NCBI GenBank assembly: GCA_021774625.1
Contig: JAJFIV010000027.1
Location: 124,001-188,000 of the forward strand
Reading direction: 5' to 3'
Source: Alphaproteobacteria bacterium
GTDB taxonomy: Bacteria > Pseudomonadota > Alphaproteobacteria > Sphingomonadales > JAKSBY01
Length of the DNA: 64,000 bases
Shown here: piece by piece, positions 42,291 through 47,645 of the stretch
Position numbering within the stretch: the stretch's first letter is position 1
Layout of the letters: the number at the start of each line of letters is the position of its first letter
Translations under genes and position numbers: made by a program
The notes under the pieces: generated by a model
What the model was told of the DNA's origin: nothing
Seen by the model: the letters and a program-made list of their open reading frames with translations, nothing else
Database searches by the model: none

Positions 42291-43880
42291 ATGCGCTATT
42301 TTGCCTTTCTTCTTGTCTTGGCCCTCGCGGTTATTTTTGCACTGTTGGGTCAGTTCAGCCGTCCGGTTTTTTTCTGGCCGCTGGTGCTGATCGTGCCTCT
42401 CTCCCTGCTCGGCATTTGGGATGTCCTGCAAAAATCCCACAGTGTGCTCCGCAATTATCCCATAATCGGCCATTTGCGCTGGTTGCTTGAAAGTGTCCGT
42501 CCCGAGTTGCGGCAATATTTCTTCGCCAGTGATACCGGCGAGGAGCCCTTTAACCGCGAGGAACGATCGCTGGTTTACCAACGGGCCAAGAATGAAGAAA
42601 GCAATATGCCGTTTGGCACCCAACTCGAACTTTATGAGGAAGGCTATTCCTGGATCAATCATTCGATCAATCCATCAACGGTGAATGAGGGCGCCTGCCG
42701 CATTAAAATTGGCGGAAAAGAGTGTAAAAAACCCTATTCCTCCTCGGTTCTGAATGTTTCCGCCATGAGTTTTGGCTCTCTGAGCAGCCACGCCATTCAG
42801 GCCCTGAACAAGGGAGCAAAGAAGGGCGGCTTTGCCCATGATACGGGAGAAGGCGGCATCAGCCGTCATCACAGACATGGCGGTGATCTGATTTGGGAAA
42901 TCGGTTCCGGCTATTTCGGGTGCCGCAATCGCGATGGCAGCTTTTCACCGGAAAAATTTACTGAAAAAGCGGCTGATGATCAGGTGAAAATGATTGAACT
43001 TAAACTGTCCCAGGGCGCAAAACCGGGCCATGGCGGCATTCTGCCCGGCGCCAAAGTAACAGAGGAAATCGCCGAGGCGCGCGGTGTCGAGATTGGCGAG
43101 GATTGTATATCCCCGAACGCCCACTCCAGTTTTTCAACACCAATCGAGATGATGGAATTTCTGGCCCGGCTCCGGGACCTGTCCGGCGGCAAGCCCACCG
43201 GATTTAAACTATGCGTTGGCCATCGCTGGGAGTTCATGGCAGTAGCCAAGGCCATGCGGGAAACCGGGATAGTTCCGGATTTTATTGTGGTCGATGGGGC
43301 AGAAGGGGGGACCGGGGCTGCGCCGCGGGAATTTTCCAACCATATCGGAACCCCGCTCAGTGAAGGGCTCGCTTTTGTTAATAACGTATTGGTGGGAACT
43401 GATCTTCGCGATCAGATCAAGATTGGGGCATCGGGCAAAGTGATTTCCGCCTTTCATATGGTGCGCCTGATGTCGCTGGGGGCGGATTGGTGCAATGCGG
43501 CGAGGGCTTTTATGTTTGCGCTGGGTTGTATTCAGTCTCAATCCTGTCATACCAACCGCTGTCCTGTCGGCATTGCCACTCAGGACAAAAAAAGAGTCCG
43601 CGCGCTCGTCGTGGAAGACAAAGCGGAACGGGTCTATCGTTTTCATCATAATACGGTTCACGCTTTTGAAGATGTGCTTGGAGCCGCCGGGCTGACGCGG
43701 CCAAGCGATATTCGCCATCATCACTTTTTTATCCGTGATGGTGACCGTCTCATTCGCTCCGGCGAAGACTGGACCGAATGGCTGGAGACTGGTGAATTGC
43801 TGAATGGGACAAAGCACGAGGATTTCTCCCGCAATTGGGATATGTCTCAGGCCGGAAGTTTTTCACCCAGAGCGCTATAG
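42291..43880 (+). CDS. membrane-anchored FMN-binding glutamate synthase-like protein
   Basis: The 529-residue protein has two N-terminal transmembrane helices (about residues 3-45) and then the FMN/3Fe-4S domain of glutamate synthase. It has NVSAMSFGSLSSHAIQALNKGAKKGG, LSQGAKPGHGGILPG, DFIVVDGAEGGTGAAP and the cluster ligands C413-x5-C419-x4-C424. There is no glutaminase domain and no central domain, as in the stand-alone YerD-type family. The electron donor and true substrate are unknown; ammonia-dependent glutamate synthesis is only the family's nominal reaction. Its stop shares a CTATAG palindrome with the stop of the convergent MurF-like gene. Confidence 0.88.
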   Translation: MRYFAFLLVLALAVIFALLGQFSRPVFFWPLVLIVPLSLLGIWDVLQKSHSVLRNYPIIGHLRWLLESVRPELRQYFFASDTGEEPFNREERSLVYQRAKNEESNMPFGTQLELYEEGYSWINHSINPSTVNEGACRIKIGGKECKKPYSSSVLNVSAMSFGSLSSHAIQALNKGAKKGGFAHDTGEGGISRHHRHGGDLIWEIGSGYFGCRNRDGSFSPEKFTEKAADDQVKMIELKLSQGAKPGHGGILPGAKVTEEIAEARGVEIGEDCISPNAHSSFSTPIEMMEFLARLRDLSGGKPTGFKLCVGHRWEFMAVAKAMRETGIVPDFIVVDGAEGGTGAAPREFSNHIGTPLSEGLAFVNNVLVGTDLRDQIKIGASGKVISAFHMVRLMSLGADWCNAARAFMFALGCIQSQSCHTNRCPVGIATQDKKRVRALVVEDKAERVYRFHHNTVHAFEDVLGAAGLTRPSDIRHHHFFIRDGDRLIRSGEDWTEWLETGELLNGTKHEDFSRNWDMSQAGSFSPRAL

Positions 43881-45491
43881 CCGGATTTTGGCCTCATAAA
43901 GATCGGGCAGGTTGTTTTCGAACAGGATGACGTCATCCGGCCCGCTGTTGGTCTTGAGCCAGGCCTCGGCCTCTTTCTGTGTGGAAAACTCGAGTAGCAG
44001 CGTGTCCGGCGGCGCCGTTTCCCGGAAGCCTTCGACAAATGTCGGAATACGTTTGCTGTCCACCGCCAGAGTGATATCAGTCGAACGGCCGGCGATGCGG
44101 CCGATTTGTTTGTGTTCCTCGGCGTGCCGGGCACCCAGTTCGACCATGCCAGGGGTGATTAATATGCGCCGCTTTTTACCGCCGCTCAGGATATTCAGAA
44201 CATCAAGCGCCGAGCGGAATCCGACGGGATTGGAATTATAGGCGTCGTCGATAATGACGGGCCCGCCCTGTTTTCCGGTTACTTCCAGCCGGTGGCGGGT
44301 CTGGGGCAGCGTGAAAACCGCCCCCCGGATCAGTTCATCCGGCACGCCCAGGCCTTTTGCGGCGATGGCGGCCAGGGCAATATTGCAGGCCTGATGCAGG
44401 CCGAAGACCGGGGCTTGCAAATCCAGCTGACTGCCGTCAGTGAATTGTACGGTCAGTTCAATACCGTTTTCAGTCTGTTTAACGCCTGACACAGTTACAG
44501 GAGGCCGGGAGGCAGGCCCTTTTCCGCCGCACAGAAGAAAAGAAGAATTATCGGCAAGACCGCGTTTTTCCATCAAACCCTCTGGTATATCATCCGCATT
44601 GACAATCACCTGGCCGCCATTCTGAATGACGCCGTCCGCCAGCTCGAATTTTGCCCTGAAGACGGTTTCAATGGATTTGAACCGCTCGTAATGCGCGGTT
44701 CCAATTGCCGTGATGATGCCAAGTTTCGGCGGCGCCAGCCGGCACAGACGGGCAATGGAGCCCGGACCATACGCCCCCATTTCGACGATAAAATAGCGGT
44801 GCCGCGGCTCCAGCTGTTCGCGAATGATGCGGGTGATTCCCATATCGGTATTGACACTGCCGGGCGTTGCGAGCGTCGGCGCGGCGCTTGAAAGAATATG
44901 CGCCAGAATATGCTTGGTGGAGGTTTTGCCGTAGGAACCGGTAATGCCGATGACAAAGGGCTTAAGTTCGCGGATTTTGGATTTTGCCTCCGCGCGAAGC
45001 CGGCGTTTGACGCGGTATTCAAAGGGTCCCAAAAGACCGTTTGCCGCCAGCAGATAGACCGGCGCCAACTGGAGAGCAAGAAAGAGCGAGACGGCATCAA
45101 AAGCCAGATAGAACAGCGCGGAAAAAAACAGAAAGAGAATAAGGGTCACCATAAAAATCCGCCGGGCACGCATGGTCATAACCAGCGGTTTTTTGGGGGA
45201 CTTCAGAATCTTCCGGCTGCGCGCAATACCGACACTCATCGCCAGGGCGGCAAGATAGAAAAACCAGGGGCTCCGTGCCCCAACCAGCCAGGAAAGCCCG
45301 AAGACCAGCAGCAATAACAGGGTGGCGCTGAGATCGACAGCCCTGTTTTTCAGCAGCCACGCCAGGAACCGTTTTGCGTCATATTCTTCCTGCTGAAAGA
45401 AAGTCAGATAGACTTTGACCCTGAAAAAACCGAACCCCAGCAGCATCAGCGCCAGCAGGAACTGTCCGGCATATGCGATCCATTCAGTCAT
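43875..45491 (-). CDS. membrane-anchored Mur ligase, MurF-like
   Basis: A 538-residue protein with an unusual architecture: about five transmembrane helices (near residues 5-25, 55-70, 74-92, 112-130, 133-153) followed by a Mur ligase with P-loop GITGSYGKTSTK (182-193). MurF-type motifs are TAIGTAHYERFKSIETVFRAKFEL and DDAYNSNPVGFRSALDVL. MurF adds D-Ala-D-Ala to UDP-MurNAc-tripeptide and is normally soluble and N-terminally different, so this is a paralogue whose acceptor may be membrane-bound. ATG at 45491 overlaps the hydrolase stop (ATGACTGA). The Ddl-like gene at the head of the same run would supply the dipeptide. Confidence 0.85.
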   Translation of the reverse strand: MTEWIAYAGQFLLALMLLGFGFFRVKVYLTFFQQEEYDAKRFLAWLLKNRAVDLSATLLLLLVFGLSWLVGARSPWFFYLAALAMSVGIARSRKILKSPKKPLVMTMRARRIFMVTLILFLFFSALFYLAFDAVSLFLALQLAPVYLLAANGLLGPFEYRVKRRLRAEAKSKIRELKPFVIGITGSYGKTSTKHILAHILSSAAPTLATPGSVNTDMGITRIIREQLEPRHRYFIVEMGAYGPGSIARLCRLAPPKLGIITAIGTAHYERFKSIETVFRAKFELADGVIQNGGQVIVNADDIPEGLMEKRGLADNSSFLLCGGKGPASRPPVTVSGVKQTENGIELTVQFTDGSQLDLQAPVFGLHQACNIALAAIAAKGLGVPDELIRGAVFTLPQTRHRLEVTGKQGGPVIIDDAYNSNPVGFRSALDVLNILSGGKKRRILITPGMVELGARHAEEHKQIGRIAGRSTDITLAVDSKRIPTFVEGFRETAPPDTLLLEFSTQKEAEAWLKTNSGPDDVILFENNLPDLYEAKIRL

Positions 45492-46284
45492 GCACAGCAC
45501 CAAATTCTTTTGCTAAAAACCGCCGGATCAAGGTTTCGCACTGATATTTCCCCCGGTTGAGGATATCATTGTGACCATATCCTGACAGAATCTTCAACTC
45601 CGCATAGGGGAGACAGCCCTCGAATTTTCTGCCTATTTCAACCGGGGTCTCGGTATCTTCATCGCCATAAATCAAAAGAACCGGCACCCGAACGGCGCGG
45701 CAGCACTGGGTCAGGTTCTCATTCACCACCCGGACGAAGGTGGGCTGCAGGGGCCCGGCATTGCGGTAATCGGCGCTGCCGAAACGCCGGCTGTAGGCGA
45801 CAGCGAATGATGTCTTAAACCGGCTGTCGGCGAACCGGGCGGCCTTCCCTAAAAGCCTGAGCACGCGGGAACGGATTTTCCAGAATATGGACCGGCTCCT
45901 GGGAATGCCCGCCGCCGCGATCAAAACAAGTCCGTCGATAGTCTCCGGATGGTTTGCCGCGATCTGAATGGCCACCCGGCAGCCAAAGGAATGGCCGATC
46001 AGAATATGCTTCGCCGCCCGGGCCTGCCCCCGTTCCTTCAGCAGAATATTCGCATAATCCGCGCTGCCTGCACCAGTGGGCGGCAACGGGGATGCGCCAA
46101 AGCCGGGCAGATCATAAAGATGATTTTCCGCAACATTTTCAAACAACCCGGCGGCTGGCAGAAAAGCCCGATGGTCCTGGCCCCAGCCATGAAGCCAGGT
46201 CAAGAGGAAGCGCGGCGCATCCCGGTTGCCGGTTATCTTGCGGTAAAGGCCGGGATGATTTTCACGTGGCGCGTCAGAGGACAT
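45484..46284 (-). CDS. alpha/beta hydrolase
   Basis: A 266-residue alpha/beta-hydrolase fold protein with the HGWGQDHRAF oxyanion-hole segment, the nucleophile elbow GHSFG, an acidic residue in LLIYGDEDTETP and the histidine in SGYGHNDIL, so the catalytic triad is complete. No signal peptide, hence cytoplasmic. Substrate unknown. It lies between a Ddl-like ligase and a membrane MurF-like ligase, overlapping or nearly touching both, so it presumably acts on an ester, amide or thioester in the same pathway. I used ATG at 46284; a TTG at 46293 overlapping the ddl stop by TTGA is possible. Confidence 0.82.
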   Translation of the reverse strand: MSSDAPRENHPGLYRKITGNRDAPRFLLTWLHGWGQDHRAFLPAAGLFENVAENHLYDLPGFGASPLPPTGAGSADYANILLKERGQARAAKHILIGHSFGCRVAIQIAANHPETIDGLVLIAAAGIPRSRSIFWKIRSRVLRLLGKAARFADSRFKTSFAVAYSRRFGSADYRNAGPLQPTFVRVVNENLTQCCRAVRVPVLLIYGDEDTETPVEIGRKFEGCLPYAELKILSGYGHNDILNRGKYQCETLIRRFLAKEFGAVHD

Positions 46285-46289
46285 TCTGC

Positions 46290-47510
46290 TCAATCCCGCT
46301 GAAAAATGGCGCCGCCGCTTTTTACGACGTCGGTTTCAAGCCTTTTGGCGGCGGCTTCCCGGAAGCCTTCTTCAATCATGGCTGTAGCAAGCTCCGAAAA
46401 ACTGACCGCCGGGCTTGCCGCTTTCCAGAGGTAAAATGCGAAGGAGCCGGGGATGGAATTAATTTCATTGAGCCACAGACCGCCGGTTTTGGAATCACAG
46501 AGAAAATCGATGCGGACTATACCCGTCAGGCCGAAAACATCGAAGGCCTTCGCCGTGACGGCAAAAATAAGCGCCTGCTGGTCATCCGTCAGTTCCTCCG
46601 GATGTAAAACCCGGTTTTGCGCCGCCATCCCTTCCACCGGCGCGTCGTCCAGTTTCACACCGCCCGACCCGGCCAGATATTTATCCTTAAAGTCCAGAAA
46701 AGCGCTTTCCTGCAGGGGCCGCTCAATAGCGGACAGACGAAAATCCCCGAAGGCGCGGCTGGCGGAAATATTATATTCCACCAGATTGGCGACAAAGGGC
46801 TCGATCAAGGCAGTTTCATCGATCCGGAAGACGGAGATCAGGGCCGCGATCAGGCTGTCCCAGTCATTTGCCCGGGCTACACCGATGGAGGAGCCGAGAC
46901 GATGGGGCTTGACGCATAAAGGAAATGTTATTTCCGAGAACGCTTCCTGCAGGGCTTTTTCCACGTCCGACTTTTCCCAGAAACTGCCATCGGTCCGCCG
47001 GGACAATGCCGCATGGGCCAGCACCGGCACGCCGTGCTGCGCCAGGGTGGTTTTGGTGAAATTCTTGTCAATGGTGGCGGCGGAGCCCAGCATGCGGCAG
47101 CCGGCATAAGGAATATTCATAAATTCGAAAAGACCCTGCAGCGATCCGTCTTCGCCGTTTGATCCGTGAATGGCGGGGACCGCCAAATCAAAAGAAAGCG
47201 TGCTGCGGCTTTCCCCCAGCAATCCTTTTTTGACAACCGAGAACTTCGGCTTTCCGGCCTTACCCGCGCCGATATCCAGCGAGATGGCCGTAAGTTCTTT
47301 CTTCGCATCTTCTCCCAGCGGATAGCGGCTGCGTTTTTTGAGCAGATTTCCGGTCCAGAAGCATCCGTCCGGATCTACATAAACCGGCAGCCCGGCATAT
47401 CGATCCGGATCCAGCGCTTCGAGAAACTGCAGACCGGTCAGAACGCTGACATCATGTTCGACACTGCGCCCGCCGAAGAAGACGGCAATGGTTTTTCTGG
47501 ACTGGTTCAT
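46290..47510 (-). CDS. D-alanine-D-alanine ligase-like ATP-grasp protein
   Basis: A 406-residue ATP-grasp ligase, longer than E. coli DdlB (306). Ddl motifs are FGGRSVEHDVSVLTG near the N-terminus, HGSNGEDGSLQGLFEFMNIPYAG, KPHRLGSSIGVARA, and the metal-binding GLWLNEINSIPGSFAFYLW. The last differs from the usual N-T-M/L-P-G-F-T, so substrate preference (D-Ala, D-Ser or D-lactate) is open. It heads the ddl-hydrolase-MurF-like run. AGAGAGGGG lies before the ATG. It could be the cell's only Ddl or a second one; the dcw cluster is outside the window. Confidence 0.85.
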   Translation of the reverse strand: MNQSRKTIAVFFGGRSVEHDVSVLTGLQFLEALDPDRYAGLPVYVDPDGCFWTGNLLKKRSRYPLGEDAKKELTAISLDIGAGKAGKPKFSVVKKGLLGESRSTLSFDLAVPAIHGSNGEDGSLQGLFEFMNIPYAGCRMLGSAATIDKNFTKTTLAQHGVPVLAHAALSRRTDGSFWEKSDVEKALQEAFSEITFPLCVKPHRLGSSIGVARANDWDSLIAALISVFRIDETALIEPFVANLVEYNISASRAFGDFRLSAIERPLQESAFLDFKDKYLAGSGGVKLDDAPVEGMAAQNRVLHPEELTDDQQALIFAVTAKAFDVFGLTGIVRIDFLCDSKTGGLWLNEINSIPGSFAFYLWKAASPAVSFSELATAMIEEGFREAAAKRLETDVVKSGGAIFQRD

Positions 47511-47645
47511 AAACCCCTCTCTTGCAACAGAGCCCGGTCAATAGAAAGGAATTCCGGCGCTTCTGTGGTCATATCTTGGATTTGACGCATATTTAAGCCA
47601 CAATTGACCGCAAAGACGATACTGTGAATCATGGAAAGGCCCCTC

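Follow-up and report, generated by a model that had tools for sequence, protein, structure and literature searches.

Ddl and MurF are generally regarded as soluble, essential enzymes of nearly all bacteria, and as drug targets. In the window, i.e., the whole 64,000-nt stretch of DNA analysed here from a genome of the order Sphingomonadales, a Ddl-like enzyme (cDdl) is encoded together with a hydrolase (cHyd) and a MurF-type ligase carried in the membrane (cMurF) (Table 1). Is this cassette an addition to the normal synthesis of peptidoglycan precursors, or does it stand in for part of it? Genome comparison shows the cassette taking over the Ddl and MurF steps; judged from gene content, it is a replacement and not an extra module. 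Neither a membrane MurF nor a Ddl-hydrolase-MurF trio was found described in the open-access literature searched.

Table 1. Features of the cassette, with positions counted from the first nucleotide of the window
Feature	Position	Strand	Description
cDdl	46290..47510	-	ATG start, 406 aa; Pfam Dala_Dala_lig_N and Dala_Dala_lig_C
Signature PGSFAFYLW of cDdl (residues 354-362)	46425..46451	-	In place of canonical PG[MF]T..SL; acceptor (second D-Ala) pocket
cHyd	45484..46284	-	ATG start, 266 aa; Pfam Abhydrolase; soluble alpha/beta hydrolase
cMurF	43875..45491	-	ATG start; Pfam Mur_ligase_M and Mur_ligase_C; membrane-integrated MurF-type ligase
Membrane domain of cMurF, five helices	44964..45491	-	Where the UDP-binding Mur domain would be; AlphaFold model
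Cytoplasmic loop K104...R115 of cMurF	45159..45194	-	Invariant basic patch with Q37, Y41, P160, E162; inner membrane face
MurF central and C-terminal ligase domains of cMurF	43878..44963	-	Pfam, fold match
ENNLPD of cMurF (E529-D534)	43902..43919	-	In place of the canonical MurF KGS/KGA motif

The first-pass annotation of this DNA had described three minus-strand genes, the first for a protein of 406 aa, as Ddl-like, hydrolase and MurF-type. The open reading frames are located as it claimed, and Pfam and NCBIfam bear out all three identities (Ddl, alpha/beta hydrolase, and MurF-type ligase); the catalytic residues are intact in each. The genes are tightly packed head to tail on the same strand, and cMurF, read from its ATG, overlaps cHyd by 8 nt. 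Alternative TTG starts exist for cHyd (at 46293, upstream, which would make it overlap cDdl) and for cMurF (at 45503, giving 542 aa); residues of cMurF are numbered here in this 542-aa version. On either side of the trio, a glutamate-synthase-like gene (end at 43880) and a small lipoprotein-like gene (start at 47631) are found on the opposite strand. Since both flanking genes are oppositely oriented, the trio looks like a unit of its own.

The dcw cluster of the window's genome (2.99 Mb, 100% complete) is normal apart from the absent ddl: the start of ftsQ lies inside the end of murB, and the gene that usually intervenes is gone. No credible Ddl besides cDdl is found anywhere in this genome. 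With ddl missing from dcw and from elsewhere, cDdl is its only real Ddl. One Ddl-like gene on C33 and frames of the biotin-carboxylase or CarB type were rejected as a hidden housekeeping Ddl of this genome, as was a tandem Ddl-like pair on C27, which has no match to the Ddl N-terminal domain and scores far under the cut-off. At this C27 locus (G000:C27, L009:1138-4486), a gene for a KamA-like radical SAM aminomutase is followed by the pair, which encodes ATP-grasp proteins of 338 and 335 aa; similar tandem pairs are found at L188-L190. The set possibly belongs to a beta-amino-acid peptide pathway.

The same loss of ddl is seen in the cassette genomes of the order. Among 121 genomes surveyed, 45 have the cassette; those of good quality (at least 90% complete and at most 5% contamination) comprise 35 with and 62 without it, as tallied by hand. 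Canonical Ddl is present in none of these 35 and in all of these 62, and in nearly all of the cassette-free genomes inspected its neighbours are MurB and FtsQ. The exception is G142, which is 78% complete and thus outside the 35, where canonical Ddl and the cassette exist together. Across phyla, cDdl is the only Ddl in 33 of 36 cassette genomes. Two gut Bacillota with cassette MurF only (G036, locus L102; G035, locus L103) have a VanG-type D-Ala-D-Ser ligase as second Ddl; with scores of 487.7 (L102) and 536.1 bits (L103) against a cut-off of 495, one is just below it and one above.

Replacement of murF has gone less far in the window's genome, which has an intact canonical murF in dcw (C23:48271-49572; 366 bits, over an equivalog cut-off). 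By its gene content this genome is mid-way, with ordinary ddl lost and ordinary murF intact. The first-pass annotation had taken the trio for a separate module and had asked whether a second ddl and murF exist in dcw: murF does, normal and intact, but ddl does not, in dcw or elsewhere, and across phyla ddl, and usually murF, is replaced. Absence of any other ddl and murF, which that annotation named as speaking against its view, thus holds by half in the window's genome and fully in many relatives. Canonical MurF is missing from 12 and kept in 23 of the 35 good-quality cassette genomes of the order (in those 23 the two MurF types may divide labour), and is missing from 26 of 36 cassette genomes across phyla; many surveyed genomes are metagenome-assembled, and species counts are not phylogenetically independent. 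In Kordiimonas (G009), both murF and ddl have been cleanly excised from dcw, so that murE abuts mraY and murB overlaps ftsQ.

The two MurF types hardly ever co-occur in two other groups. In Lachnospiraceae, 11 genomes have the cassette only, 105 canonical MurF only and none both; the corresponding numbers for Micavibrionales are 37, 61 and 1. The single Micavibrionales genome with the cassette and an intact-looking dcw murF is G448 (L214, L215), possibly a recent acquisition of the cassette. Among the matches listed for Muribaculaceae, nearly all genomes have the cassette; of the five whose canonical MurF stands alone as a protein, at least four are without it. An apparent presence of both types in this family was rejected, as the second protein is a MurF/alanine-racemase fusion of 820-890 aa whose MurF domain has no DxYNxN, and it occurs whether the cassette is there or not. 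This fusion (L210, L213) co-occurs with either true MurF type, and to judge from the missing motif its MurF half may be inactive.

Some canonical MurFs retained beside the cassette have decayed. Catalytic residues are lost in three of nine examined from cassette genomes (in cMurF numbering, N218D and E241K in G074; N218H, H271R and R405H in G127; N218R and E241K in G145), and the active site is intact in the other six, as in all five from cassette-free relatives. The three substituted genes (L205, L206, and L208, respectively) are still full-length open frames; their products are probably inactive as enzymes and may have been retained as scaffolds.

How widespread is the cassette? Scanning of species genomes gave 75 cMurF loci in Pseudomonadota, Bacillota, Bacteroidota, Omnitrophota, and Actinomycetota, the groups being Alphaproteobacteria (Kordiimonas, Iodidimonas, Rhodothalassium, Eilatimonas, and Micavibrio-like bacteria), Omnitrophota, Bacteroidales, Clostridia/Bacilli, and Actinomycetota. 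cHyd adjoins cMurF in 66 of the 75 loci and cDdl in 55, an association of the trio far beyond chance; the co-occurrence across phyla that the first-pass annotation proposed to map thus extends to at least five of them. The gene order is Ddl-Hyd-MurF in most Alphaproteobacteria and Hyd-MurF-Ddl elsewhere, with a divergent Ddl in Micavibrio. Five Micavibrio-like loci have the complete trio within dcw, between murB/murC and ftsQ, the usual site of ddl. When 15 genomes were picked because cDdl had not been seen beside cMurF, 14 of them were found to have a Ddl with the cDdl signature elsewhere (in one, split over two frames), indicating that Ddl type tracks MurF type beyond mere location. In a clade of Clostridia (L084-L096), tsaE-tsaB-rimI-like genes are followed by hydrolase-cMurF, with an unlinked Ddl bearing PGS..YLF. 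None of the plasmid records has a full-length relative, and carriage of the cassette by plasmids or phages was rejected for want of a full-length annotated case. Unannotated faecal phage records give a few partial matches; in MT835658.1 and MT835503.1, partial relatives of cMurF (37% and 32% identity) extend as far as the membrane domain. These could be bacterial contamination.

What do the proteins themselves suggest? cDdl is an ATP-grasp enzyme like D-Ala-D-Ala ligase (Ddl; TIGR01205/NF002528, EC 6.3.2.4), with which it shares both domains (Pfam) and all catalytic residues: the E/S/Y triad, the arginine and the Mg ligands are present, and E18, S208, Y278, R333, E349, and N351 are invariant across the family. 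Its scores against TIGR01205 (223.9 bits; cut-off 245.65) and NF002528 (229.9 bits) are both under the cut-offs, which members from Bacillota and Bacteroidota do pass. The nearest solved structure is S. aureus Ddl, of the Gram-positive type. Unlike canonical Ddl, cDdl proteins (approximately 395-415 aa) have a long omega-loop insert and form a single clade of their own (support 99/98, with the signature masked). They have PGS-x(3)-[YF]-L-[WF] where canonical Ddl has PG[MF]T-x(2)-SL/SR, following the NSIPG/NTIPG loop, and the canonical acceptor-site motif is absent from the window's cDdl. From known Ddl structures, we take this to be a change in the dipeptide (acceptor) pocket; the equivalent of S281 is Y or F. 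The NSIPG loop, to which the first-pass annotation had drawn attention, was rejected as a meaningful change, since T and S alternate there within the family and NTIPG is the commoner form, found in most relatives.

cMurF shares with MurF (TIGR01143, EC 6.3.2.10) the central and C-terminal ligase fold and all catalytic residues (P-loop, carbamate lysine, and DxYNxNP, compared with 25 canonical MurFs). TIGR01143 is by far its best family, although its score of 214.6 bits does not pass the cut-off of 288.6. The best solved match of its AlphaFold model (pLDDT 92.8) is also MurF (4qf5, E 1e-22; A. baumannii and P. aeruginosa MurF). It differs from MurF in that five membrane helices (2-38, 58-74, 80-101, 111-134, and 147-180 in the model), as the first-pass annotation had estimated, precede the ligase domain in place of the UDP-binding N domain, and in that it is usually encoded outside dcw. 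The UDP-binding domain (PF01225) is absent from the four cassette members checked and present in the control MurF of the window's own genome; for the membrane domain itself, no Pfam family scores above cut-off. cMurF proteins form a single clade separate from canonical MurF (support 100/98). For the topology that the first-pass annotation proposed to predict, loop charges indicate N-out/C-in, with a mean K+R of 3.7, 3.6, and 5.3 for cytoplasmic segments versus 0.4 and 0.1 outside. All invariant residues of the membrane domain (Q37, Y41, K104, T110, R112, and P160) and the nearly invariant R115 and E162 are on the cytoplasmic side, where one would expect a pyrophosphate-sugar head group. Four positions, all in the C-terminal part, are fixed differently from the 25 canonical MurFs (A to S424, S to G428, L to T450, and K to E529) and presumably alter the dipeptide pocket, as read from known Mur structures.

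cHyd has the triad S99/D210/H238 and further invariant residues R103, which follows the nucleophile elbow, S170, and D172, which lies in the cap. A fold search finds only generic esterases, with BioH first. The invariant R103 and D172 would suit a zwitterionic substrate. cHyd is retained even in genomes of approximately 0.9 Mb.

These features lead to a model that we regard as likely as a whole, membrane joining included: the trio would be a self-contained alternative for finishing the stem peptide that displaces ordinary ddl and usually murF. That the set makes a dipeptide and joins it at the membrane had been judged rightly in the first-pass annotation. In this model, cDdl would synthesize the terminal dipeptide at the expense of ATP, most likely D-Ala-D-Ala or perhaps a close variant, and cMurF would use ATP to attach it, at the inner membrane face, to the stem tripeptide. 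cHyd would be an obligate helper whose substrate is probably small and zwitterionic, e.g., the dipeptide or a peptide end (editing or trimming), a role to which its residues only weakly point. The acceptor of cMurF would probably be lipid-linked (lipid I or II tripeptide) and less probably UDP-MurNAc-tripeptide, although belief and doubt in a lipid-linked acceptor are about equally balanced. As far as domain content goes, loss of the UDP-binding domain tells us just that the usual mode of UDP binding is gone, and the acceptor may be a soluble substrate. MurT/GatD, the lipid II isoglutaminyl synthase, acts on lipid II and is a precedent for a Mur ligase with a lipid-linked substrate. It is also a Mur-type ligase paired with a hydrolase-type partner; in the cassette, however, the partner is an alpha/beta hydrolase and not a GatD glutaminase, the ligase has five membrane helices, and the match is weak (22.7 bits). 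For the product of cDdl, D-Ala-D-Ala is reasonably favoured by the conserved active site. The altered dipeptide-side pockets (Y/F at the S281 equivalent in cDdl; E529 and G428 in cMurF) imply that it could differ. The VanG-type second ligase in two cassette-only genomes gives a hint that the normal terminus there is D-Ala-D-Ala.

Other readings share part of this evidence. cMurF might function as an ordinary MurF that uses UDP-MurNAc-tripeptide, its helices holding it near MraY and MurG with the pathway order unchanged. Its catalytic core is fully MurF-like, gene replacement would require no new order, and membrane association of soluble Mur ligases with MurG, MraY, and MreB has been reported (PMC6420597). 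We consider this quite possible, if short of an even chance: the entire UDP-binding domain is missing in every cMurF checked, and the six invariant cytoplasmic-side residues exceed the needs of a passive anchor. It is rather unlikely that the stem has a non-standard terminus other than D-Ala-D-Ala, with the hydrolase trimming or unmasking the product. The substitutions that are fixed in both enzymes on their dipeptide side, a Ddl signature that tracks cMurF even if unlinked, and the nearly constant hydrolase would fit such a terminus. However, cDdl retains R333, Y278, S208, and E18, dcw transpeptidases such as FtsI are ordinary, and canonical MurF, expected to need D-Ala-D-Ala, is kept in most genomes of the order with cDdl only. 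A VanG-type D-Ala-D-Ser ligase is likewise sensible if the normal terminus is D-Ala-D-Ala, the target of vancomycin.

The acceptor-modifying or peptidoglycan-variant set beside a complete normal pathway, as first proposed, is improbable. The intact dcw murF of the window's genome agrees with it, but normal ddl is missing there, cassette genomes of several phyla are without normal ddl and often murF, and the Micavibrio-like trio is inserted at the ddl site itself. A cassette for glycopeptide- or cycloserine-type resistance is very improbable. cDdl scores far under the cut-offs of all Van ligase models, its Y278 equivalent is of the D-Ala type, no plasmid record has a full-length relative, and Gram-negative marine bacteria and genomes of approximately 1 Mb have no Ddl but this one. 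In common with van clusters, where a variant ligase is accompanied by a dipeptidase and sometimes by an additional murF, the cassette combines dipeptide ligase, hydrolase, and MurF; unlike them, it is under every Van family cut-off and in many genomes serves as the only housekeeping set. Least credible of all is that the ligases build a poly-amino acid or a lipid modification outside peptidoglycan. Mur ligase domains do serve other polymers in PgsB and cyanophycin synthetase, but TIGR01143 is far ahead as best family, loci exist in dcw, and canonical ddl and murF are lost; no match of the cassette to the PgsB family (PgsB/CapB poly-glutamate synthase) is found in NCBIfam.

A cassette found across phyla thus replaces both Ddl and MurF, moves MurF into the membrane and has both dipeptide pockets altered. 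From this, precursor synthesis would be expected to follow another order, and the stem might also end differently. It is tentatively proposed, with doubt slightly outweighing belief, that bacteria with the cassette only have a pool of UDP-MurNAc-tripeptide and complete the stem after MraY, cMurF adding the dipeptide, possibly a non-standard one, to lipid I/II. If true, completion at the lipid stage would alter the order of steps that textbooks give for peptidoglycan synthesis, for lineages of at least five phyla and with them almost the entire gut family Muribaculaceae. Part of Lachnospiraceae and some cultured marine bacteria, e.g., Kordiimonas, have the cassette as well. The replacement would have consequences for pathway reconstruction, for lists of essential genes, and for the expected action of Ddl and MurF inhibitors in these bacteria.
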